NCBI GenBank assembly: GCA_014804085.1
Contig: JAAVAM010000022.1
Location: forward strand, 27,061 to 42,671
DNA: 15,611 nt
DNA from: Treponema sp.
GTDB taxonomy: Bacteria; Spirochaetota; Spirochaetia; Treponematales; Treponemataceae
Reading direction: 5' to 3'
Part shown: in pieces, positions 1,134 through 15,611 of the stretch
Position numbering within the stretch: the first letter of the stretch is position 1
How the letters are laid out: each line of letters begins with the position of its first letter
The notes under the pieces: generated by a model
The model's database searches: none
The model's input: only the letters and a program-made list of their open reading frames with translations
What the model was told of the DNA's origin: nothing
Position numbers and translations under genes: made by a program

Positions 1134-1373
1134 GGAACGCTTCCCCCACGTTGGGAAACATCTTCCTCATGTCGGGGAACGTCTCCCCCATATCGGGGGA
1201 CATCTTCCCCATGTCGGGGGAAGTCTTCCTCATGTCGGGGAACGTTTCCCCCACGTCGGGGAACGTTTTCCCCATGTCGGGGAACATCTTCCCCATGTCG
1301 GGGAACGCTTCCCCCACGTCGGGGGAAGTCTCCCTCACGTTGGGGAACATCTTCCCCATGTCGGGGACGTGTC
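1134..1373. repeat. Array of about eleven 21-bp palindromic tandem repeats
   Basis: Ten 21-bp units run without gaps from 1153 to 1362, with a degenerate unit before (1134-1152) and a partial one after (1363-1373). The commonest form is ggggaacatcttccccatgt plus c. Each unit holds TTCCCC and GGGGAA arms, so any unit can pair within itself or with its neighbour (6-bp stems with 4- or 5-base loops). The length is a multiple of three and no stops occur, so several frames stay open. The minus frame 1359-1105 reads a heptapeptide repeat of the type DMGKMFP / DVGEAFP and ends in LIEMREGW, but it has no well-spaced ribosome site. The array fills the gap between the rarA stop and the adk promoter. 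There are no unique spacers, so it is not CRISPR. Confidence 0.9.
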
Positions 1374-7535: not shown

Positions 7536-7553
7536 TACGCATTACCATGCGTA
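7536..7553. terminator. Hairpin between convergent genes
   Basis: TACGCA (7536-7541) and TGCGTA (7548-7553) form a 6-bp stem with a 6-base loop that covers the stop codon of the minus-strand barrel gene. There is no U-tract, so a terminator role for the folD-folE2 transcript is only possible. Confidence 0.3.
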
Positions 7554-8243
7554 GCGGGCGGGTTGCGCCCCGTCATCGTCTGCCGGTTCGTCCGTTTCCG
7601 TTCTGTCGGGGCTGTCTGCCGTCCGCCGGAATATCCGCCGCAGTATGACCGGGAGGTTCAGCTTGATGTGGATGCCGTACCGCAGCCCTTTCCGCGTGAT
7701 TTTGTTGCTGAACGCGTTGTCGCCGTCGTTGAGGGGCAGGCGGTAGCCGACGAACGCGTCCGCCATGACGTAATCAAAGAAATTCTGTTTCCACCCGATT
7801 TCGCCGAGCAGCGTGATAAGCGCGTCGCTCTGCTCGCGGTCGGGGAGCGCGTTGCCATTGTACATGATGAAGTCCGTGCCGCACCCGCCGCCGACGTACA
7901 GCCAGTCAAGCCCGCGGGCAAACGGGTAGCAGAGCGCCTCTAGCTGCAAGCCGACGGTCGTGACGGTCATGCCGGAGCCGGACGGCTTTAGGGTCATGTG
8001 AGAGAAACTGCCCTTGACGGCGAGGCGGGGGAGCAGTGCTGCCTCGTAGGAAAGCCCCAGCCCCCAGCCGTTGTTCCGTAGCCCCGTGCCCAGATAGCCG
8101 AGGTCGAGCGAAAGGATGTCCTTGCCGACAAAACTTTCCGCGCCGGCAGCCGGCACAAACAGGCAAAGCAGCAGGACAATGACGGCCGCGCGGCGCGGGC
8201 GCGTGTTTGTGTGCGGCAGTTTGCCCGGCAGAACGAATCCCAT
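7542..8243 (-). CDS. Predicted outer-membrane beta-barrel protein, unknown role
   Basis: 233 residues from the ATG at 8243. A basic N-terminus (residues 1-18 include RPRR) leads into the hydrophobic core VIVLLLCLFVPAAGA, with likely cleavage before ES. The mature part alternates hydrophobic and polar residues in strand-sized pieces (LSLDLGYLGTGL, GLGLSYEAALLP, LAVKGSFSHMTL, VTTVGLQLEALCYPF, LLGEIGWKQNFF, VMADAFVGYRLPL, YGIHIKLNLPVIL), fitting a small barrel. A polar, acidic tail follows and ends in tryptophan. I know no specific function. The start is uncertain: no Shine-Dalgarno precedes it. A TATAAA at 8255-8250 would start RNA at or next to the ATG, so a leaderless message is possible. It is separated from the upstream lipoprotein gene by a terminator. 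Confidence 0.65.
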   Translation of the reverse strand: MGFVLPGKLPHTNTRPRRAAVIVLLLCLFVPAAGAESFVGKDILSLDLGYLGTGLRNNGWGLGLSYEAALLPRLAVKGSFSHMTLKPSGSGMTVTTVGLQLEALCYPFARGLDWLYVGGGCGTDFIMYNGNALPDREQSDALITLLGEIGWKQNFFDYVMADAFVGYRLPLNDGDNAFSNKITRKGLRYGIHIKLNLPVILRRIFRRTADSPDRTETDEPADDDGAQPARYAW

Positions 8244-8268
8244 GCGCTTTTTATAGCAGATTTTGCGG

Positions 8269-8301
8269 AAAAAAGAAAGGCGGCGGTCGCTTTCCCGCCG
8301 C
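8269..8301 (-). terminator. Rho-independent terminator of the 217-residue lipoprotein gene
   Basis: On the minus strand GCGGCGG (8301-8295) and CCGCCGC (8286-8280) form a 7-bp GC-only stem with an 8-base loop. It is followed by CTTTCTTTTTT (8279-8269). It lies about 60 bases past the stop codon. Confidence 0.75.
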
Positions 8302-8306
8302 AAGCA

Positions 8307-8335
8307 AATCAGCCGCCCTGTACGGACGGCTGATT
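8307..8335. terminator. Second stem-loop directly after the lipoprotein gene
   Basis: AATCAGCCG (8307-8315) pairs with CGGCTGATT (8327-8335), a perfect 9-bp stem around an 11-base inner part. It lies 27 bases past the stop and just before the U-tract terminator. It has no U-tract of its own and may protect the RNA 3' end or assist termination. Confidence 0.5.
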
Positions 8336-8361
8336 GTATACTGTGTGATTGCTATGCGCGG

Positions 8362-9015
8362 TTACTTGCCCCGTGTGTATATTATGTCGCCATAAGATAC
8401 ATAGCGAGTGCTATAGTCTTGCGGGTTGCGATTATAGGACTCGTAATAATGGCCATCGTCTTCATCCGGCAGAGTTCCATACCTACTAGCGTCATACGGC
8501 AGTTCTTTGATTGTGAACGTGGTGCCGTCCAAAGTGCCTGCTGTCAAGGTGATAACAATGCCTCTGCTCGTCGAGTAAGTGTCGCCTGTTTTTCTGATGG
8601 TAGTTTCTACAGAATTTGAAATGTCGTTATCCCTAAAGTCGAAATAATAACTTACTATATTTGTTTGTGTCGCGCCTGTTGTATCCGTTCCCCACTCCAT
8701 TGTCGCAACGTTGTCAGTAACAGGAGTTTTGTCCGCCACCCAGGCGTTGTGGAAATATTTGTTTACAGGCACATACTCGTACTTGTCCTCATCCCATTCT
8801 TCATCAATAAAATAATACTTTCCGCTGGCGGGTTTTGTCGTGCCGAGTTCGACCGGCTTGTACACATACCGTGTTGCCGTCACCGTTCCGGCATACTCAT
8901 ATTGAACGGCATCCACACCCTTATGCGTCGTTACGTCCAGTTCGTTAGAGTCCGAGCAGGACATCCACAATCCGAGGCTTGCCGCGCAAGCCAAAGTCAA
9001 AAGCAGTTTTTTCAT
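8362..9015 (-). CDS. Putative lipoprotein, unknown function
   Basis: 217 residues. MKKLLLTLACAASLGLWMSC gives a signal sequence with Cys20 as probable lipidation site; the box is loose (W-M-S-C), which spirochaetes tolerate. The mature part is acidic and rich in Tyr, Thr and Asp, with strand-like pieces (YEYAGTVTATRYVYKPV, KYYFIDEEW, IVSYYFDFRDN, GIVITLTAG), so it is probably beta-rich. I do not recognise a family. AGGAAGG (9027-9021) is 5 bases from the ATG. A promoter lies at 9090-9062. The gene is divergent from an XRE regulator (9170), the same layout as the BspA-like lipoprotein and the second regulator further right. Confidence 0.75.
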   Translation of the reverse strand: MKKLLLTLACAASLGLWMSCSDSNELDVTTHKGVDAVQYEYAGTVTATRYVYKPVELGTTKPASGKYYFIDEEWDEDKYEYVPVNKYFHNAWVADKTPVTDNVATMEWGTDTTGATQTNIVSYYFDFRDNDISNSVETTIRKTGDTYSTSRGIVITLTAGTLDGTTFTIKELPYDASRYGTLPDEDDGHYYESYNRNPQDYSTRYVSYGDIIYTRGK

Positions 9016-9035
9016 AAAAACCTTCCTGTAGATTT

Positions 9036-9048
9036 GGCATTAAATGCC
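9036..9048. promoter_or_regulatory. Palindrome in the lipoprotein leader, possible operator
   Basis: GGCATTAAATGCC is a perfect inverted repeat (5-bp arms) between the promoter at 9090-9062 and the ribosome site at 9027. Its ATTAAATGC core recurs between the -35 and -10 boxes of the BspA-like lipoprotein promoter (13022-13030). Both loci have a divergent XRE gene, so a shared regulator site is possible. Confidence 0.4.
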
Positions 9049-9061
9049 AGTATTGTTTGAG

Positions 9062-9090
9062 AATATAACATTAAATATTAAATAATGCAA
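9062..9090 (-). promoter_or_regulatory. Promoter of the 217-residue lipoprotein gene
   Basis: On the minus strand TTGCAT (9090-9085) is followed after 17 bases by TATATT (9067-9062). The surrounding sequence is very AT-rich. Confidence 0.6.
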
Positions 9091-9169
9091 GTAGAATTTG
9101 ATGTTTAGATATAATTTTTGCCATTAAAAATTATGTTTTATTGCCGGGGTCGCTTGTAAAGTCTATGAT

Positions 9170-9484
9170 ATGAACGTAAAGGTCATTTTTGGCGAGAATT
9201 TGAAGCATTGCAGGAAACTGCACAAACTCACCCAGGAGGAGCTTGCGGAAAAACTGGGAATAACGCCGCCGCATTTGAGCCGCATTGAGAACGGGAAATC
9301 TTTTGTGACGGCGGAGCTGCTGGACGCGCTCTGCGTTATTTTTGACATTACCCCCGCGAGCCTGTTCCTTTCGCCGCAAGAATTCACGGGCGACGACAGC
9401 CTGTTCGCAAAAATTGATGCCGTGATTGACGAGGAATTGAAGGAGTGGGGGATTCAGTTAAAGAAGAAAATCAGAAAACAATGA
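9170..9484 (+). CDS. XRE-family helix-turn-helix regulator (copy 1)
   Basis: 104 residues. The helix-turn-helix is residues 20-43 (LTQEELAEKLGITPPHLSRI, then ENGK), preceded by FGENLKHCRKL and followed by the LLDALCVIFDITPASLF segment typical of Cro/CI-type domains. A short C-terminal helix (DDSLFAKIDAVIDEELKEW) may serve dimerisation. It should bind DNA as a dimer and probably controls the divergent lipoprotein gene; this is inferred from position. It is clearly paralogous to the regulator at 13132 (MN(V/I)K..FGENLK, TQEEL, HLS, ENG, FVxAE). No Shine-Dalgarno precedes the ATG. TTGCCG at 9141-9146 and TATGAT at 9164-9169 are a 17-base-spaced promoter that would start RNA just inside this frame, so the start or promoter needs care. 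Confidence 0.85.
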   Translation: MNVKVIFGENLKHCRKLHKLTQEELAEKLGITPPHLSRIENGKSFVTAELLDALCVIFDITPASLFLSPQEFTGDDSLFAKIDAVIDEELKEWGIQLKKKIRKQ

Positions 9485-9512
9485 CGTTGCCGGGAGCCGT
9501 AAAATACAAGGC

Positions 9513-9543
9513 AATAGGGAAAGCCGTGTGCGCTTTCCCTGTT
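9513..9543. terminator. Bidirectional hairpin between convergent genes
   Basis: AGGGAAAGC (9516-9524) and GCTTTCCCT (9532-9540) form a perfect 9-bp stem with a 7-base loop, extendable by A-U and G-U pairs to 9513-9543. It sits between the XRE gene and the convergent small membrane-protein gene. There is no long U-tract on either side. Confidence 0.5.
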
Positions 9544-9546
9544 ATG

Positions 9547-9891
9547 TCAGCACTTTTCAATCTCTGATTTTACTCTGGCTTTCAGAGATTTTGTTATAGG
9601 ATATGAGTCGATCTTATCGAACATTTCTTTTTTTGAAAGGTTCTTTTTGCGCATAATTCTTTTTGCAACCTCAATCATAATCTTACTGTATCCATAGCGC
9701 GAAATCACCGATATGCCGCCATTAATTGCAATAAGAACGACGACCCCACCGACCATTCCGAAAGGACCTCCAAAAGCCGCAAGTGCAGCTGTTGTTGCGG
9801 CCGAACCCGCAAATCCTGTTGCACTCCTCGCCCCCAAGAATATTAGTGCCGGTATTCCGATGCTTGCAAGCTTTTCGCAGAATTCGTCCAT
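9547..9891 (-). CDS. Small glycine/alanine-rich membrane protein, unknown
   Basis: 114 residues. Two hydrophobic Gly/Ala-rich stretches, about residues 11-42 and 44-65 (IGIPALIFLGARSATGFAG, then GGPFGMVGGVVVLIAINGG), suggest two membrane helices or a hairpin. A basic tail follows (AKRIMRKKNLSKKEMF, YPITKSLKARVKSEIEKC) that should stay in the cytoplasm. I believe similar hypothetical proteins of about 110 residues are widespread, but I know no function. AAGGAG in the leader sits about 8 bases before the ATG. The gene is the last of a minus-strand run and carries the same stem-loop leader as its upstream neighbour, so the two may be controlled together. Confidence 0.7.
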   Translation of the reverse strand: MDEFCEKLASIGIPALIFLGARSATGFAGSAATTAALAAFGGPFGMVGGVVVLIAINGGISVISRYGYSKIMIEVAKRIMRKKNLSKKEMFDKIDSYPITKSLKARVKSEIEKC

Positions 9892-9965
9892 AAGTATTAC
9901 TCCTTGCCTCGTCTTTCCAACGACGAGGCGTATGTATTTTTTTGTCCGTCATACGACGGATGTTT
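9892..9965 (-). repeat. Stem-loop leader repeat, copy 1
   Basis: About 65 bases nearly identical to copy 2 (10218-10291). In RNA order for the minus strand: stem TCCGTC/GACGGA with a 4-base loop, an A-rich spacer (AAAAAAATA), stem GCCTCGTC/GACGAGGC with an 8-base loop, then AAGGAGTAA just before the ATG. The second stem ends directly at the Shine-Dalgarno, so it could affect ribosome access. Read on the plus strand, that stem is followed within a few bases by a T-run, resembling a terminator. Confidence 0.85.
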
Positions 9966-9968
9966 TGC

Positions 9969-10217
9969 CTATAGGTTTTCCTTGATTATTTTTTCTATTT
10001 CGTCCCAATTTTCAGAATCTTCCAATAGATATTTTTCCGAACACTCATTGCACACAACGTCATATACTCTTGTTGCAATGAAAGCGTCTTCATTTGCAAA
10101 GTCTTTCTCAGGAATGTTAAGATCGTTTTCTGCGCCTTTAATCATTTCTCTCCTTGTTTCATGCTCGACTTTGTTTTTATTCCCACATTTCGGACACTGA
10201 CTTTCAATTTCAAACAT
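9969..10217 (-). CDS. Small zinc-ribbon-like protein, unknown
   Basis: 82 residues with two CxxC pairs, C8-C11 (QCPKCGNKN) and C56-C59 (VVCNECSEKY), 44 residues apart. This is a four-cysteine zinc-ribbon arrangement, probably structural. The rest is charged and acidic (IEKDFANEDAF-like, ENWDEIEKIIKENL), with a helical C-terminus. No enzyme motif or membrane segment is seen, so it should be cytoplasmic and could bind protein or nucleic acid. I do not recognise the family. The ATG at 10217 has AAGGAG about 8 bases upstream inside leader copy 2. It lies between the BspA-like gene and the small membrane-protein gene, flanked on both sides by the repeated stem-loop leader. Confidence 0.7.
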   Translation of the reverse strand: MFEIESQCPKCGNKNKVEHETRREMIKGAENDLNIPEKDFANEDAFIATRVYDVVCNECSEKYLLEDSENWDEIEKIIKENL

Positions 10218-10291
10218 TGTTTTTACTCCTTGCCTCGTCTTTCCAACGACGAGGCTTATATATTTTTTCGTCCGTCATACGACAGACATTT
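10218..10291 (-). repeat. Stem-loop leader repeat, copy 2
   Basis: Direct repeat of 9892-9965 with a handful of differences. The GCCTCGTC/GACGAGGC stem and loop and the following AAGGAGTAA are identical. The other stem has one mismatched pair (TCTGTC/GACGGA). It lies after the stop of the BspA-like gene and before the zinc-ribbon gene. Confidence 0.85.
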
Positions 10292-10307
10292 TTAACGGTA
10301 TTGTCAG

Positions 10308-12020
10308 TCACTCCTTATACAAGTCAGAACCGATCAATGAACTCGCGGGGTAGCTGTTAACAAGCCTAAATGCGTTGGACACAGGATTGCTAAGATCTAC
10401 TTCTCTACCACCGCTTAGCCACCCCGAAGTGTCTTTGAATATTATACGCGTAAGTGACGTACAGTCTGAAAACGCAGTAGCCCCCTCAAGAATTATTACG
10501 CTCGATGGAATTTCAATATCACCCATAAGATTCCGACACGAGGCAAATGCATGGCTCTTAATTTTCTTGAGTCCTTCAGAAAACTCTATTGTTTCAAGTC
10601 CACTCAAGTGAAAAGCAAATCTGCCAATTTCTGTGACGCTGGGAGGGAATCGTATCGTTTTTAGCGATTTGCACGATTGAAATGCATATTCATCAATTAT
10701 GGTAACGCCCTCCATATTTTCCACTTTTTCAAGTTGCTCGCAGCTAGAAAAAGCACTCGCGCCTATCTTCGTAACACTTTTGGGAATTGTTATGCTTGCA
10801 AGATTCGTACACCCAGAAAAAACTGCGGTTCTAATTTCTGTAATATTGGCAGGAAGCGTTACGTTCGTGAGGCTCGTGCATTTATTGAACGCGGCAGTCC
10901 AAATTGTCGTAACGCTGTCTGGGATTGTTATGCTTGCGAGGCTCGTGCATCCGCTGAACGTATAGTCCAAAATTGTTGTTAAGCCGTTTGGAAGCGTTGC
11001 GCTTGCGAGGCTCGTGCATTCATTGAACGCATACTTCCCGATTGTCGTTAAGCCGTTTGGAAGCGTTGCGCTTGCAAGACTCGTGCATCCGCTAAACGCA
11101 TAATCACCAATTGTTGTTAAATCATTTGGAAGCGTTACACTTGTAAGGCTCGTGCATCCTTTGAACGCTTCTTTTCCGATTGTCGTAATACCGTTTGGAA
11201 GTATTATGCTCGCAAGACTTGTATAGGATCTGAAATACATATCGTTAATTTTTGTCAGACCCGTTATTCCGCTCAAGTCTATGTCAACTTGTTTTGATGA
11301 GCCATACTTGGAAGAGAAGTTATATAATATGTTACTGAAATAAAATTCTGAAAGTTCACCCACAACCTTGACTTTGGCGTTTGTATTTGTCTTCGCGTAG
11401 TTTTCCAATGCATTGGAAAGTTCGGAAAGGGTCTCTTTTGTCCATGCGCTTGGCGCATCCCCGTAGTCACAGGTTGGGCATATTTCTTTTCTTTCGCCGT
11501 CACTTGTGAGGGTGACGATCTTGGTTGCGTGTTCGGCAAAGTTTTCTTGCTTTCCACAACCGATGCATTCATTCCAGTGACCGCTTGCATCGCCTTTCCA
11601 TGTCGTGCTGTAACTATGTTCTGTCATCGCAATGGACTCGGTTCTTGTTATATTGCATACGGTGCAGATGTAAGTTCTTTCCCCTTCTGCGGTACATGTT
11701 GCCGCTTTCGTAATTTCAGGGTACCATGTGTGCGCTATTTTGTACGTGCGGTGTTCTTCCCTGCCGCAGCTCGCTTCGCGCCAGTGGAACTGTTCGTCAG
11801 TTGTCCATTCGCTTGACATGGTATGTTCATGCTTCAATGTGGGAATGACCTCCGTCCTTATGCTGCCGCATACGGTACAGGTGAAAGCCTTTTCGCCGGT
11901 TTCTTGTTCCGTCGCGGCTTTAGTGATTGTTCCATTATCCCATCCGTGCGCCGTTTTGCCCGTGCGGTGTTCTTCCCTGCCGCAGCTCGCGTCGTGCCAG
12001 TGGAATTGTTCGTCAGAAGA
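10308..12020 (-). pseudogene. BspA-like LRR lipoprotein, C-terminal part beyond an in-frame stop
   Basis: Same reading frame as the upstream part (12021-12950), separated only by a TAG at 12023-12021. It encodes 570 codons: the rest of repeat 4, repeats 5 and 6 of the Cys/His/Trp module, a linker (SAWTKETLSELSNALENYAK region), then about a dozen LRR_5 (BspA/TpLRR) units of roughly 23 residues, e.g. SLASATLPNGLTTIGKYAF. It ends in a short C-terminal block finishing LYKE. BspA-type proteins are surface adhesins that bind host proteins or other bacteria. The only starts after the stop (TTG 11837, ATG 11819 region) lie inside a repeat and have no signal peptide, so this part could reach the surface only by readthrough, suppression or repair of the TAG. 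Confidence 0.8.
10560..11270 (-). repeat. LRR_5 (BspA-type) repeats of about 69 bp
   Basis: Tandem units of 23 residues with the pattern LxxIxLPxGxTxIGxxAFxGCTS. Those between about 10860 and 11200 are close to identical at the DNA level (for example gcttgcgaggctcgtgcat recurs), so they are recent duplications able to recombine. Flanking units are more diverged. Confidence 0.8.
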
Positions 12021-12818
12021 CTATTCGCTTGCCATGATATGCTCGTGACCGAGCGCGGGAACGGTCTCGGTCTTTGTTGTGCCGCACGTGGTGCAACTGA
12101 AGAGCGTCTCGCCGTCGTCGGTTTCCGTCGCGGCTGTTATGATTTCGCCCTTGTCCCAGTCGTGCGTGGCTTTGTCTGCCCGGTGTTCTTCTCTGCCGCA
12201 GCTTGCTTCGTGCCAGTGGTGTGCTTCGTCAGAAGTCCATTCGCTCGCGATTATATGCTCATGGCCGAGCGCGGGAATTGCCTCGGTCTTTGTTGTGCCG
12301 CATGTGGTGCAGGAGAAGAGCGTTTCGCCGTCATCGGTTTCCGTCGCGGCTGTTATAATTTCGCCCTCGTCCCAGCCGTGCGCCGTTTTGTCAGTGCGGT
12401 GTTCTTCCTTGCCGCAGCTCGCTTCGTGCCAGTGGTGTGCTTCGTCGGCTGTCCATTCGCTTGCCATGATATGCTCGTGACCGAGCGCGGGGATTGCCTC
12501 CGTCTTTGTTGCGCCGCATGTGGTGCAGGTGAATGTCTTTTCACCGTCGTCGGTTTCCGTCGCAGCTGTTGTGGTTTCGCCCTTGTCCCACTTGTGCGCC
12601 GCTTTGTCGGTTCGGTGCGTTTCTTTTTCGCAGCTCGCTTCGTGCCAGTGGCATTGTTCGTCAGAAGTCCATTCGTTTGCTATGGTATGCTTGTGTCCGA
12701 GCGCGGGAATAGCCTCGGTCTTTGTTTTGCCGCATTTTGTGCAGGTGAAAAGTGTTTCGCCGTCGTTGTCTTCCGTCGCGGGTATGGTGATTTTGCCCGT
12801 GTTCCACGTGTGCTCCGC
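11736..12818 (-). repeat. Five 216-bp tandem repeats (72-residue Cys/His/Trp modules)
   Basis: Five units, the first one codon longer, followed by a diverged sixth to about 11526. Each holds AHxWDxGxxTxAATExxxGE, FTCTxCGxTKTEAIPALGH, EHxMASEWTxDE, and HHWHEASCGxEEHRTDK. Every unit has a CxxC pair, a third Cys and several His/Trp. Units 3 and 4 are almost identical in DNA. Unit 4 carries the TAG. Confidence 0.9.
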
Positions 12819-12950
12819 CGTGCCTGTTGCGCAGCTGCCGTTTTCAGATGCATCGGCAAGCAGGTCATCAACGGAACAAGTCGCAAAGGCAAAAGCCATT
12901 GCAACCGTAGCGATGACAAAAAATGGAATGGTACGCAAACCTTTTTTCAT
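12021..12950 (-). CDS. BspA-like lipoprotein, N-terminal part (ends at premature TAG)
   Basis: 309 residues as read. The signal sequence MKKGLRTIPFFVIATVAMAF ends at lipobox-like AFATC with Cys25 as probable lipidation site, followed by SVDDLLADASENGSC. From residue 45 come 72-residue modules with CxxC, HWHEASC and EHxxASEW motifs. Reading stops within module 4, where sister modules have TGG ACT and this one has TAG TCT. Without this stop the gene would run to 10308 as an 880-codon BspA-like lipoprotein. AAAGGAG (12965-12959) is 8 bases from the ATG, and a strong promoter lies at 13040-13012. The gene is divergent from the XRE regulator at 13132, which probably controls it. Confidence 0.8.
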   Translation of the reverse strand: MKKGLRTIPFFVIATVAMAFAFATCSVDDLLADASENGSCATGTAEHTWNTGKITIPATEDNDGETLFTCTKCGKTKTEAIPALGHKHTIANEWTSDEQCHWHEASCEKETHRTDKAAHKWDKGETTTAATETDDGEKTFTCTTCGATKTEAIPALGHEHIMASEWTADEAHHWHEASCGKEEHRTDKTAHGWDEGEIITAATETDDGETLFSCTTCGTTKTEAIPALGHEHIIASEWTSDEAHHWHEASCGREEHRADKATHDWDKGEIITAATETDDGETLFSCTTCGTTKTETVPALGHEHIMASE

Positions 12951-13011
12951 AAGACATTCTCCTTTTGCATGATTCGCAGAGTTTTATTACTTTAAAAGTA
13001 AATATTTTCGT

Positions 13012-13040
13012 ATAATACTGTATTAAATGCTGAAAGTCAA
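13012..13040 (-). promoter_or_regulatory. Promoter of the BspA-like lipoprotein gene
   Basis: On the minus strand TTGACT (13040-13035) is followed after exactly 17 bases by TATTAT (13017-13012). The spacer contains the ATTAAATGC motif (plus strand 13022-13030) shared with the leader of the other lipoprotein, placing it well for repression. Confidence 0.75.
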
Positions 13041-13113
13041 TGTAATTATTACTTATAACTAGTAAACACCAGTCGTTTAGAAATGTGGCAACCTTTATAT
13101 GTTTTGGTTTCAG

Positions 13114-13122
13114 TGTTATATA
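13114..13122 (+). promoter_or_regulatory. Extended -10 promoter of XRE copy 2
   Basis: TGtTATATA at 13114-13122 is an extended -10 element. RNA would start about 13129, at most a few bases before the ATG at 13132, so the message would be nearly leaderless. No convincing -35 box is seen. Confidence 0.45.
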
Positions 13123-13131
13123 CAGTAACGT

Positions 13132-13443
13132 ATGAACATTAAACGAGTCTTTGGAGAAAACCTCAAGAAATATAGGAAACGGCTACGGTTCACGCAGGAA
13201 GAGCTTTCGGAAAGGATAAACATAACGCAAAAGCATTTGAGTTTGGTGGAGAACGGCGTGACATTCGTTTCGGCAGAAGTCATTGAGCGGCTTTCTGATG
13301 TCCTCAAAGTGCCGGCCGCATCGTTTTTTTACAGTGAAGAAGAAAACGTTGGCGGGGAAAGTTTTCTGCGCCGGATTGACATCATTGTGGAGGAGGAGCT
13401 GTATTCGGCAATGAAAAGCATAAAGACGCGTGCGCGGGGGTGA
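13132..13443 (+). CDS. XRE-family helix-turn-helix regulator (copy 2)
   Basis: 103 residues. The helix-turn-helix is about residues 20-43 (FTQEELSERINITQKHLSLV, then ENGV), followed by the AEVIERLSDVLKVPAASFF segment of Cro/CI-type domains. The C-terminal helix (SFLRRIDIIVEEELYSAM) matches in position that of the paralogue at 9170. It should bind DNA as a dimer. Position suggests that it regulates the divergent BspA-like lipoprotein and perhaps the downstream gene across the 23-bp repeat array. There is no Shine-Dalgarno before the ATG; the extended -10 at 13114-13122 predicts a nearly leaderless message. Small XRE proteins of this type are, to my knowledge, numerous in treponeme genomes. Confidence 0.85.
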   Translation: MNIKRVFGENLKKYRKRLRFTQEELSERINITQKHLSLVENGVTFVSAEVIERLSDVLKVPAASFFYSEEENVGGESFLRRIDIIVEEELYSAMKSIKTRARG

Positions 13444-13477
13444 TACGGGCAGGGCATTATGTTCTCCGTTTAGGCAG

Positions 13478-13638
13478 GAAAACCCGTTAGAATCCCATGG
13501 GTAAACCCGCTAGAAACCCTGTGGTAAACTCGCTATAAATCCTGAGGTAAAACCGCTATAATCCCTGTGGTAAACTCGCTATAAATCCTGAGGTAAAACT
13601 GCTATAATCCCTGAGGAAAAACAATTATGGAGTACTGA
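13478..13638 (+). repeat. Seven 23-bp tandem repeats ending at a start codon
   Basis: Units begin at 13478, 13501, 13524, 13547, 13570, 13593 and 13616. The typical form is GTAAACTCGCTATAAATCCT plus GAG. Units 3 and 5 are identical; 4 and 6 differ by a few bases; 1 and 7 are degenerate. TATAAA or TATAAT occurs at 13534, 13557, 13580 and 13603, exactly 23 bp apart. The last unit supplies GGAG (13629-13632) six bases before the ATG at 13639. With no spacers it is not CRISPR. It fills the whole gap after XRE copy 2 and must contain or overlap the next gene's promoter, so copy number could change expression. Confidence 0.9.
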
Positions 13639-14745
13639 ATGACCTTAAAAGAAATACTGCACAAACGCTATGACGGAGTGAAAAAACAAGAGCCTAGAGG
13701 CTCCGATTTTGAGACGTTCTACAACAACGAATCAAGAAAACTGACGGATCTCTTCAAGCTCCTGCAACTTGACGAATGGACAGAAAAACTGAAGTCAAAC
13801 GGAGAATATAATTTCTCGCAAAAAGAGGCGGACTTCGTGCTGAGGCTTTTCGACGAGTATTCCGGGAAAGATGCAAAACTGGACGCAATCAGGCGAATGG
13901 ATTTCAGAAAATTCGATCCAGCATTTGTGGACTATCTCTGTCAGGGATTTCTGGAAATGTTCCGCGAGGCGGGGGCGTCGCCAGAAGAGCTTGCACACAT
14001 TGAGGTGAAGTTGCAAGAACGGATTTTTGCCGACTTTTACCAGGCAAGGGTGCAATACAATGCGACGAGGAAACGGCTTGACCAGTTTTTCAGAACATGC
14101 GCTATTAACAATCTTTCGGACTACAGGGAATTTCTCAGCTACTTTGCTGGCGAATTTGAAAAACTTTCAGCACCGTTCATTGAAAGCATGCAAGACCTCG
14201 CAGAGGCAATGGACGCAATCCGTTTGGAAGAATGCGTCGATGATGACCGCCTGAAAAACGAGGTTGAAAAAATAAGTCTAGAAGAAATTATGTGGGATGA
14301 GCTTGATACTGTCTATGCTGACAAAATCGATAGCGCAAAGGCCAGTGACGAGGAACTGAAAAAACTTAAACAAAAATATGAGTCTTTGATAAATCCTGGC
14401 GCAAAGAAACTGATAAATCCTGGCGCAAAGAAACTGATAAATCCTGGCGCAAAGAAACCGCCGTTCGTAAATAAAATAGAAAAAACGGCGCAGAAATTGG
14501 GAGCGCGCATTTCCGCGCGCGAAAAAGAAATAGAAAAATATATTATAGAAGAAGAGCATACAAAGGCTCTGCAACGCGACGGCAAACTGCATGAAAACGA
14601 ACGTTTTACGCTTCCGAACATAGAGAATCCGTACACGCCTTCTGCTGAAAACATACTGTCCTCGCGCGACGTGCTTGTTCGCGCGTTGGAACGGCTCAAA
14701 GAAGATGATGAAAACCTTGAAAGCGACAAGGACACGCAAAGGTAA
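13639..14745 (+). CDS. Unknown helical cytoplasmic protein with internal 8-residue repeats
   Basis: 368 residues, highly charged, with no signal peptide or membrane segment. The sequence is almost all predicted helix by eye: heptad-like runs around 150-215 (RLDQFFRTCAIN..., EKLSAPFIESMQDLAEAMDA) and a coiled-coil-like region around 235-250 (SDEELKKLKQKYE). Three perfect copies of LINPGAKK follow at about 250-273, then a helix (ISAREKEIEKYIIEEE) and an acidic tail (LKEDDENLESDKDTQR). I recognise no family or catalytic motif. GGAG six bases upstream supports the ATG. The gene is preceded by the 23-bp repeat array and followed by a terminator, so it is probably transcribed alone or with XRE copy 2. 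A structural or adaptor role is conceivable but unsupported. Confidence 0.75.
   Translation: MTLKEILHKRYDGVKKQEPRGSDFETFYNNESRKLTDLFKLLQLDEWTEKLKSNGEYNFSQKEADFVLRLFDEYSGKDAKLDAIRRMDFRKFDPAFVDYLCQGFLEMFREAGASPEELAHIEVKLQERIFADFYQARVQYNATRKRLDQFFRTCAINNLSDYREFLSYFAGEFEKLSAPFIESMQDLAEAMDAIRLEECVDDDRLKNEVEKISLEEIMWDELDTVYADKIDSAKASDEELKKLKQKYESLINPGAKKLINPGAKKLINPGAKKPPFVNKIEKTAQKLGARISAREKEIEKYIIEEEHTKALQRDGKLHENERFTLPNIENPYTPSAENILSSRDVLVRALERLKEDDENLESDKDTQR
14386..14457 (+). repeat. Three in-frame 24-bp repeats (LINPGAKK)
   Basis: Units at 14386-14409, 14410-14433 and 14434-14457 differ only at the first base (TTG/CTG). The core ATAAATCCTG also occurs in the 23-bp array upstream of the same gene, followed in both by an A-rich stretch and AACTG, so the two arrays look related. 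Confidence 0.9.
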
Positions 14746-14748
14746 AGC

Positions 14749-14773
14749 CGCACGTATAGGTGTGAATTTTTTT
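14749..14773 (+). terminator. Terminator of the 368-residue protein gene
   Basis: CGCAC (14749-14753) pairs with GTGTG (14760-14764) around a 6-base loop, followed by AA and seven T residues (14767-14773). The stem is short and has one G-U pair. Confidence 0.5.
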
Positions 14774-14826
14774 CTAGTTTTTCACAATGTATCATTCCTC
14801 AAGCCTCCGTTATAGTGTATGCAGGT

Positions 14827-14857
14827 AAAGCAAAGGCGCATCGATTGCCTCTGCTTT
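14827..14857 (+). promoter_or_regulatory. Stem-loop in the leader of the HU-like gene
   Basis: AAAGCA (14827-14832) pairs with TGCTTT (14852-14857), then an A-C mismatch, then AGGC (14834-14837) with GCCT (14847-14850) around a 9-base loop. A TATAGT at 14811-14816 could be the -10 box just before it, though no good -35 is seen. The AAGGAGG ribosome site lies about 15 bases after the stem. Confidence 0.4.
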
Positions 14858-14884
14858 GCAGAAAAAAATATAAGGAGGTCTGAT

Positions 14885-15271
14885 ATGTCAGACTTAAAGA
14901 GTACTGGTGGCTCATTTATCGAGCTTACCGAAGGAACTGCGGGGCACGTTTCCGTGAGCCTACAGAAAAATCATTTGGTGGAATCCGAGTCGCAGATGTA
15001 CCACGGAAAAGTGGAGCGGCGTATGTATTCGGAGAAGAACATTCTTGACGAGGTGTGCCGCAGGCTTCCCTCTGTCGATCCGGGAACGGCGGTTTCGATT
15101 TTGAATGCGTTTGGCGACGTGATTTGCGATGCCCTCAGTAAGGGCTACGCCGCAAAATTCGGAAAGCTCGGCACGTTTTATGTGGCGAGCAAAGGGCTAG
15201 TGAGCGCGCAGGACGAAAATCCCGAACTTACGGCGAAGTTTTCCCCAGCGAATACTTGCGCAATTGCGTGA
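14885..15271 (+). CDS. HU-like DNA-binding domain protein, N-terminal part (frameshifted)
   Basis: 128 residues as read from the ATG at 14885, which has a strong AAGGAGG about 6 bases upstream; an earlier in-frame ATG at 14819 lacks one. The start (MSDLKSTGGSFIELTEGTAG) and the following VSVSLQKNHLVESESQMYHG, KNILDEVCRRLPSVDPGTA and AKFGKLGTFYVASKG are those of the HU/IHF-like domain (Bvu_2165-type) that in treponemes and Bacteroidetes is joined to a DUF4469 C-terminal domain. Such proteins are thought to bind DNA. The frame breaks after KFSP: it reads NTCAIA and stops, while the expected continuation SEYLRNCVKDVKIDH is in another frame. One missing base in the C-run 15243-15246 explains this. 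Confidence 0.75.
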   Translation: MSDLKSTGGSFIELTEGTAGHVSVSLQKNHLVESESQMYHGKVERRMYSEKNILDEVCRRLPSVDPGTAVSILNAFGDVICDALSKGYAAKFGKLGTFYVASKGLVSAQDENPELTAKFSPANTCAIA

Positions 15272-15611
15272 AGGATGTGAAGATTGACCATGCCAGTTTT
15301 GAAGACCCAAAGGCGGCAATCTTTTCAGTCACCGATGTCGTCACCGGCAAAACGGGCCTTTCGCTCACGGCGGGCGGTTCCGTCCTTGTCGAAGGCAGCG
15401 GGCTTCGGGTTGGCGGTGACGGTTCGGGGATATGGTTTTCGCCGCTTTCTGACGGGCAAAAGCTTGCGGCAGACGAAAAGATGTGGCACGCCGTGGATTC
15501 GGCGCTGGTCTACAATATGCCCGCAAAGCTGCTGTTCCAGATGCCCGCCGCTCTTGAAGTCGGCGCGCATTATAAAATCGTCGTGCGCACCAGGTTTGCG
15601 GGCAAATCCAA
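15247..15611 (+). pseudogene. DUF4469-type C-terminal part of the same gene, out of frame and cut by right edge
   Basis: From AGC at 15247 the shifted frame reads SEYLRNCVKDVKIDHASFED, then VVTGKTGLSLTAGGSVLVEG, SGLRVGGDGSGIWFSP, HAVDSALVYNMPAKLLFQMP and YKIVVRTRFAGKS to the window end. It is open throughout and matches the Ig-like DUF4469 domain that normally follows the HU-like domain. Only about the last few tens of residues seem to lie beyond the window. The domain is undamaged apart from the junction, so the break is either very recent, a sequencing or assembly error in a homopolymer, or a slippage switch. Confidence 0.75.

Follow-up and report, generated by a model that had tools for sequence, protein, structure and literature searches.

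The stretch of DNA analysed here, referred to as the window, is 15,611 nt of Treponema sp. (contig C29, positions 27061-42671) from draft genome G000, which amounts to 2.71 Mb in 75 contigs and is 89.75% complete. A tandem array with a 23-bp period lies in the window between two plus-strand genes, that of a small XRE-type protein and that of a 368 aa protein (Table 1). The XRE gene is on the same strand as the 368 aa gene and 195 bp 5′ of it, and a scan of the plus strand between the two found no terminator-like site. The window has no match in Rfam at gathering scores.

Table 1. Positions of the array, its parts and the neighbouring features in the window
Feature	Position	Strand	Basis
Second array of the same class		1134..1367	.	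TRF; 21-bp period, 63-bp higher-order period, dyad-symmetric units
Gene for XRE-type helix-turn-helix protein, 103 aa	13132..13443	+	PF01381, E 2.5e-11
Unit 1, diverged	13477..13499	+	16/23 to the consensus of units 2-6
Units 2-6, five good units in two alternating versions	13500..13614	+	21, 21, 20, 21 and 20 of 23 to the same consensus
46-bp block, copy 1	13523..13568	+	44/46 identical to 13569-13614
46-bp block, copy 2	13569..13614	+	2 differences in 46 from copy 1
Extended -10 element TGCTATAAT, probable promoter	13600..13608	+	sequence of unit 6
Unit 7, repeat-like in its first half alone; contains ribosome site	13615..13638	+	10/23 to the same consensus; sequence
GGAG, likely ribosome-binding site	13629..13632	+	sequence; 6 bp before ATG
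Gene for 368 aa protein	13639..14745	+	eight homologues, 56-92% identity

Searches of Pfam, PADLOC, NCBIfam, PHROGs and PDB sequences gave no match to the 368 aa protein. Its gene is nevertheless judged to be real from the eight homologues and a shared N-terminus. The residues MTLKE are present in 8 of 9 aligned rows (the window protein, seven homologues and P0007), the ninth row, P0007, being a fragment that does not include the N-terminal end, and by this comparison the start codon at 13639 is well supported. The closest other protein of named source is the homologue P0002 (90% identity), from a MAG designated “Treponemataceae bacterium”. When the protein was sought in 147 genomes, the one match was the window itself. 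Alignment A1 of the family, run against 274 genomes, gave two matches, the window and a weak match in G258 that has three stops, and no relatives were found in the genome contigs or viral contigs searched.

The 368 aa gene also carries three perfect 24-bp repeats (window positions 14387-14458) that encode LINPGAKK; there are two copies in P0002 and one in the remaining homologues. The 10-mer ATAAATCCTG occurs both in this 24-bp unit and, further upstream, in units 3 and 5 of the 23-bp array, perhaps by chance. Elsewhere in the window, a tandem repeat with a 216-bp period (11730-12806) straddles two consecutive minus-strand ORFs, covering the last part of the first and the beginning of the second; these two ORFs (10308-12950) may once have been a single surface-protein gene.

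Structure of the 23-bp array

Both the sequence and TRF place a tandem array with a period of 23 bp, anchored on GGTAA, at 13477-13638. TRF scores are 155 at period 23, 200 at period 46 and 192 at period 69, whereas 40 order-1 Markov windows of equal length reach 58 at most. Thus the 23-bp array of the original prediction, which was made from the letters of this DNA, is real. Its units start at 13477, 13500, 13523, 13546, 13569, 13592 and 13615. The original prediction also had seven units filling the space before the gene to the base; unit 7 does reach the ATG and includes the ribosome site, but it is half decayed, and its score is equalled or beaten at 1,131 of 31,178 window positions on the two strands. 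The duplication of 13523-13568 at 13569-13614, with two differences, indicates that the last expansion was a two-unit, 46-bp step.

Dyad symmetry is not displayed by the window array: its value is equalled or exceeded in 197 of 200 unit-permuted controls. There is also no RNA fold signal (z 0.04), and a hairpin function for this array was rejected on that score.

Related arrays and the genome-wide class

It had been proposed that the genome be searched for the same 23-mer, and related arrays do occur on contigs C48 and C30 of G000. The C48 array was found in a DNA search of 269 genomes (E 2.1e-4, 69% over 97 bp), which took at most the best three candidates per genome among the matches listed; these did not include the array of the close relative G061, and they did include a 33-bp match in G207, where TRF detects no array. 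A search with a three-unit pattern located arrays on C48 and C30 and on C50 of G061. Compared array against array by BLAST, the window array has one direct match, the C48 array, at 70.9% over 103 bp (E 1.1e-7). By single linkage, the window, C48, C30 and C50 arrays form one group. BLAST E-values are inflated between periodic arrays; the reversed arrays nonetheless gave 0 pairs. The presence of the family in at least three places of G000 points to copying about within the genome. The three-unit GGTAA pattern was matched in 35 of 200 genomes of the genus. However, the backwards control also matched often (45 times in G204 and 25 times in G267), so the search locates arrays and proves no enrichment; GGTAA was rejected as a special motif.

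The C48 array is situated between a minus-strand gene and a plus-strand 131 aa gene. The 131 aa gene and a 566 aa gene beside this array (L075, 8392-10498) match no Pfam or PADLOC model; the start of the 566 aa protein looks SIR2-like by eye. The C30 array lies directly behind a gene that resembles a metal-transporter permease, a label given by eye. The gene finder called the C30 context tandem, and the ORFs suggest a convergent gap.

To place this family among the tandem repeats of the genome, TRF arrays with a score of at least 50 were collected over 1,183,749 bases of G000 (1.18 of 2.71 Mb), a sample that includes the window and two loci fetched for their arrays. There are 149 arrays, of which 84 were called non-coding and 63 coding, with 2 between the cut-offs. 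It should be noted that the hexamer gene finder is crude: an LRR-coding repeat at 10852-11168 was counted as non-coding, and the array at 1134-1367 was missed and was added by hand for the family clustering. In 400 kb of G000 picked by contig alone there are 19 non-coding arrays. Samples of 80 kb, which are small, hold 1 non-coding array in G197, 1 in G200, 4 in G201, 4 in G061 and 2 in G101, a member of another family.

Arrays with a period below 18 were dropped from the counts of base periods and families. In the 82 non-coding G000 arrays that have a period of at least 18, the smallest period is 20-24 in 48, 40-42 in 22, 27-28 in 5 and another value in 7, and at least four base copies are present in 47. 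Clustering of 106 arrays from G000 and G061 gave 22 families of at least two members (65 arrays) and 41 singletons. The 22 families are of like size and unlike sequence, several to a genome. No k-mer common to most arrays was found. The best 5-mer by excess is present in 19% of arrays as compared with 8% in the background, and the commonest one listed in 30% as compared with 22%; thus no short characteristic sequence is shared across the repeats of the genome.

Non-coding arrays of G000 are found in gaps of every gene orientation (45 tandem, 15 divergent, 15 convergent and 9 at an edge). All gaps longer than 60 bp number 243 tandem, 104 divergent and 54 convergent, so that the arrays are similarly distributed, with relatively more in convergent gaps. 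For the 45 arrays in tandem contexts of both genomes, the stop codon upstream is no more than 30 bp away in 10 cases (6.4 expected, p 0.08) and the start codon downstream in 8 (6.5 expected, p 0.31). A preference of arrays for gene ends was rejected on these values.

Many arrays of the class are dyad-symmetric. In a test that leaves out arrays shorter than 46 bp as well as those of period below 18, 46 of 76 non-coding G000 arrays have at most 1 in 30 unit-permuted controls that are as symmetric, as compared with 9 of 47 coding arrays; in G061 the numbers are 10 of 22 and 2 of 16. Within the family of the window array, the C48 member is symmetric (equalled or exceeded by 0 of 200 controls; fold z -6.6), and the C30 and G061 members are not (55 and 97 of 200). 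The second array of the window is also symmetric (1 of 200), and a good fold was obtained for part of its minus strand (z -3.9). This second array clusters with arrays in L163 and L213 and is flanked by the gene for a RarA-like AAA ATPase on one side and an adenylate-kinase-like gene on the other, the latter label given by eye.

The relative G061 allows arrays to be compared in place. Array flanks that could be matched over at least 200 bp are mostly 86-98% identical between G061 and G000, with a few at 65-81%. The L201 array, which belongs to another family, is 40 bp, or one unit, longer in G000, and the remaining sequence is 97% identical. For the C48 sibling, the region in G061 exceeds that in G000 by about 112 bp; some five units on its right-hand side can be aligned in register, and identity is 83% over the whole aligned stretch and 96-97% in the flanks. 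No unit was gained or lost in the L172, L203 and L114 arrays, and the alignments of the remaining pairs are not clean enough for unit counts. Thus units are gained and lost in this class, and some arrays are stable. An array with a 28-bp period (L118, 10847-11152) is contained in a stretch of about 306 bp in G000 whose counterpart in G061 is about 10 bp, between flanks more than 91% identical, and is thus a case of presence and absence.

At the locus of the window array, G061 matches window positions 7536-9496 and then a sequence that starts in G000 128 bases past the window end, so that about 96 bp in G061 stand in place of about 6.2 kb in G000. No G061 match to window positions beyond 11105 was found among the 40 of 69 candidates scored. 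The 368 aa gene, the array and the XRE gene at 13132 therefore belong to a block that is absent at that place in G061. The block was either gained in G000 or lost in G061. Its place in G061 (9497-15611 plus the 128 bases) is between an XRE gene and a ribosomal protein L13-like gene, as labelled by eye. The XRE-type proteins encoded at 9170-9484, at the edge of this variable block, and at 13132-13443, inside it, are about 45% identical.

A class of bacterial tandem repeats with constant size (20-21 or 52 nt, and 20-23 nt in many groups) and variable sequence has been described by Subirana and Messeguer (PMC8161180). In that paper, several families are reported per genome, with partial conservation between strains and no known function, and roles in the nucleoid or as small RNAs are suggested. 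The G000 arrays are like this class in being non-coding, with a 20-23 nt unit and several families of the same size that are unlike in sequence. With six to seven 23-bp units between two genes, the window array is itself non-coding, has at least four units and falls within this size, and it is placed in the class as a new member on these main features. Partial strain conservation is seen in other G000 arrays, whereas the locus of the window array is absent from G061.

There are also differences from the class as it is presented there. A second size class, of 40-42 bp, is found in G000, and dyad symmetry is present in many G000 families, although not in the window array; short sequences together with their reverse within one repeat are noted in the same source (PMC8161180). 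Both features are worth adding to the description of the class. Characteristic short sequences are also reported in that text, whereas the G000 arrays have no motif common across families. The published statement covers many species, not all, and a shared short sequence was therefore treated as non-defining. A treatment of this class in Treponema was not found by title or abstract among the matches listed.

In another spirochaete, Leptospira interrogans, dispersed non-coding families with units of 46, 46, 37, 69 and 46 nt have been reported in an earlier survey by Subirana and Messeguer (PMC6749651). These are similar to the G000 arrays in forming several scattered non-coding families, and the lengths 46 (three of five) and 69 (one of five) are multiples of 23. 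However, L. interrogans is without short-repeat satellites according to that report, whereas G000 has mostly 20-24 bp base units; the two were compared by description.

The last intact unit and the role of the repeat

TATAAA or TATAAT recurs at 13534, 13557, 13580 and 13603, all four as predicted. The copy at 13603, in unit 6, is the only one with TGn ahead of the -10 box, which gives TGCTATAAT, and its hexamer begins 36 bp 5′ of the ATG. Exact TATAAT is found in 0 of the 3 sibling arrays and in 2 of 82 other G000 arrays, and an extended -10 on either strand in 7 of 83 G000 arrays. As many -10-like boxes on the plus strand are present in 12 of 300 unit-permuted versions of the array. A good -35 box is not present in any unit, the best being 4/6 to TTGACA at spacings of 15-19 bp. 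The original prediction had equated the 23-bp period with the distance between the starts of -35 and -10 boxes. The arithmetic is correct (6 + 17 = 23), but the position of the “-35” falls on the -10 box of the preceding unit and matches TTGACA at 3 or 4 of 6 positions at most. Thus the array does not consist of successive -35/-10 modules. Since good -35 boxes are missing from all units, adding or removing units further upstream would leave unaltered both the spacer and the best -10, that of the last intact unit, and unit number would change neither promoter spacing nor the count of complete promoters. The -10-like boxes are local to this array and agree with a promoter in its last intact unit, but they do not define the repeat; promoter activity from that unit is plausible on its sequence.

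The reading that we favour, with a probability of about 0.55, is that of a class-typical non-coding minisatellite, the last intact unit of which is the probable promoter of the 368 aa gene, with no gene-specific job for the other units. The array would be one member of a genome-wide intergenic class, with base periods that mostly correspond to about two helical turns (20-24 bp) or four (40-42 bp) and with sequences split into many small families. It would have grown in place by unequal exchange or replication slippage, in steps that include the 46-bp two-unit step, and its last intact unit would then have become the probable promoter, with the extended -10 and the GGAG in front of the gene; the remaining units may have no gene-specific job. 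The sibling arrays, the base periods and families of the surveyed arrays, the 46-bp duplication and the confinement of the extended -10 to the unit nearest the gene count in favour of this reading. Against it, the window array lacks the dyad symmetry common in the class and has no fold signal, the -10-like boxes could be due to chance, as the permuted arrays show, and the end of the array at the ATG is unexplained by a purely passive origin. For the 368 aa gene this amounts to a modest result, namely that the repeat probably provides a promoter.

The alternative that survives best, although it is rather unlikely, is a neutral minisatellite and nothing else, in which transcription of the gene starts elsewhere, e.g., together with the XRE gene, and the -10-like boxes are a matter of chance. 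The permutation result, the lack of a good -35 and the position of the XRE gene, 5′ on the same strand with no terminator-like site found in between, are all in agreement with it. However, a perfect TGnTATAAT stands at a fitting distance before the ribosome site in the very unit nearest the gene, and exact TATAAT is rare in other G000 arrays.

A broader proposal, which we regard as tentative and doubtful, is that of a satellite system that keeps unit length and not sequence. Such a system would comprise probably well over 100 intergenic arrays, which form many small and often dyad-symmetric families and fall into two size classes, one of about two helical turns and one of about four; arrays would grow and shrink by one or two units and be copied between intergenic sites, perhaps because repeat length is measured by a protein that wraps DNA or polymerises on it. 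In the window array, such a member would have lost symmetry and been turned into a promoter. The published class is without a known function or way of spreading, and the pair G000 and G061 makes growth, loss, spread and symmetry measurable.

The copy-number switch that had been suggested for this locus, with unit number setting expression of the 368 aa gene, is possible yet improbable. As in contingency loci, where repeat number switches a promoter, a tandem repeat lies directly 5′ of the start codon; other arrays of the class vary in unit number between close genomes, and the 24-bp repeat within the gene varies in copy number among family members. The array is unlike contingency loci in its long unit and in having no -35/-10 spacing that is set by unit number. 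The suggestion is weakened further by the occurrence of arrays in all gene-orientation contexts and by the siblings, which adjoin other genes and do not have exact TATAAT.

A multi-site operator bound by the adjacent XRE protein, the other function originally put forward, is very improbable. The XRE gene is directly upstream and the sites are repeated, but 0 of the 13 XRE-type hits of G000 are on C30 or C48, so that these two sibling arrays do not accompany an XRE gene on their contigs. In addition, the window holds no comparable site elsewhere: the best match to a unit outside the array scores 7.8, and near the upstream region of the XRE gene 6.5, as compared with 33-34 for units 2-6. The units of the window array are also not dyad-symmetric. 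The operator claim is thus unsupported.

REP and BIME elements are extragenic, dyad-symmetric and dispersed, and can stand in tandem. The G000 arrays share these features, but they form many small families of unlike sequence with a strict period, and the window array is not an imperfect palindrome. The least credible reading, disfavoured for G000, is a remnant of a mobile element, in which a Y1 (RAYT) transposase would have spread REP/BIME-like elements or the units would be repeated transposase sites from the end of an IS21- or Tn7-type element: related arrays are dispersed and the array is within a block absent from G061, but the IstB match of G000 is partial (profile positions 95-198 of 238, in a 504 aa frame that by eye is probably another AAA protein), a near-complete IstB is found only in G256 among 20 genomes, Y1 transposase has one match below the cut-off in this 89.75% complete draft and three above it in G061, two of them with an internal stop, and no k-mer is common to most arrays.

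Arrays of 23 bp in other genomes

Arrays with a 23-bp period and another sequence (GGTAAAAATCTAAAGT...) are found in four other genomes (L077, 5206-5297; L078, 8005-8119; L083, 7957-8071; L089, 7985-8099). Next to each array, at a distance of 17-24 bp, an AAA_14/DUF4143 ATPase gene begins, in reverse orientation; the gene was assigned by Pfam in L077 and by its first residues in L078, L083 and L089. An array of the GGTAAAAATCTAAAGT type without an adjoining AAA_14/DUF4143 gene is present in G058 (L082). In addition, 23-bp GGTAA arrays are found at L081 (8064-8132), 369 bp from a gene for a type ISP restriction-modification enzyme, and at L088 (4138-4229), 119 bp from a gene for an Eco57I/MmeI-like restriction-modification enzyme.
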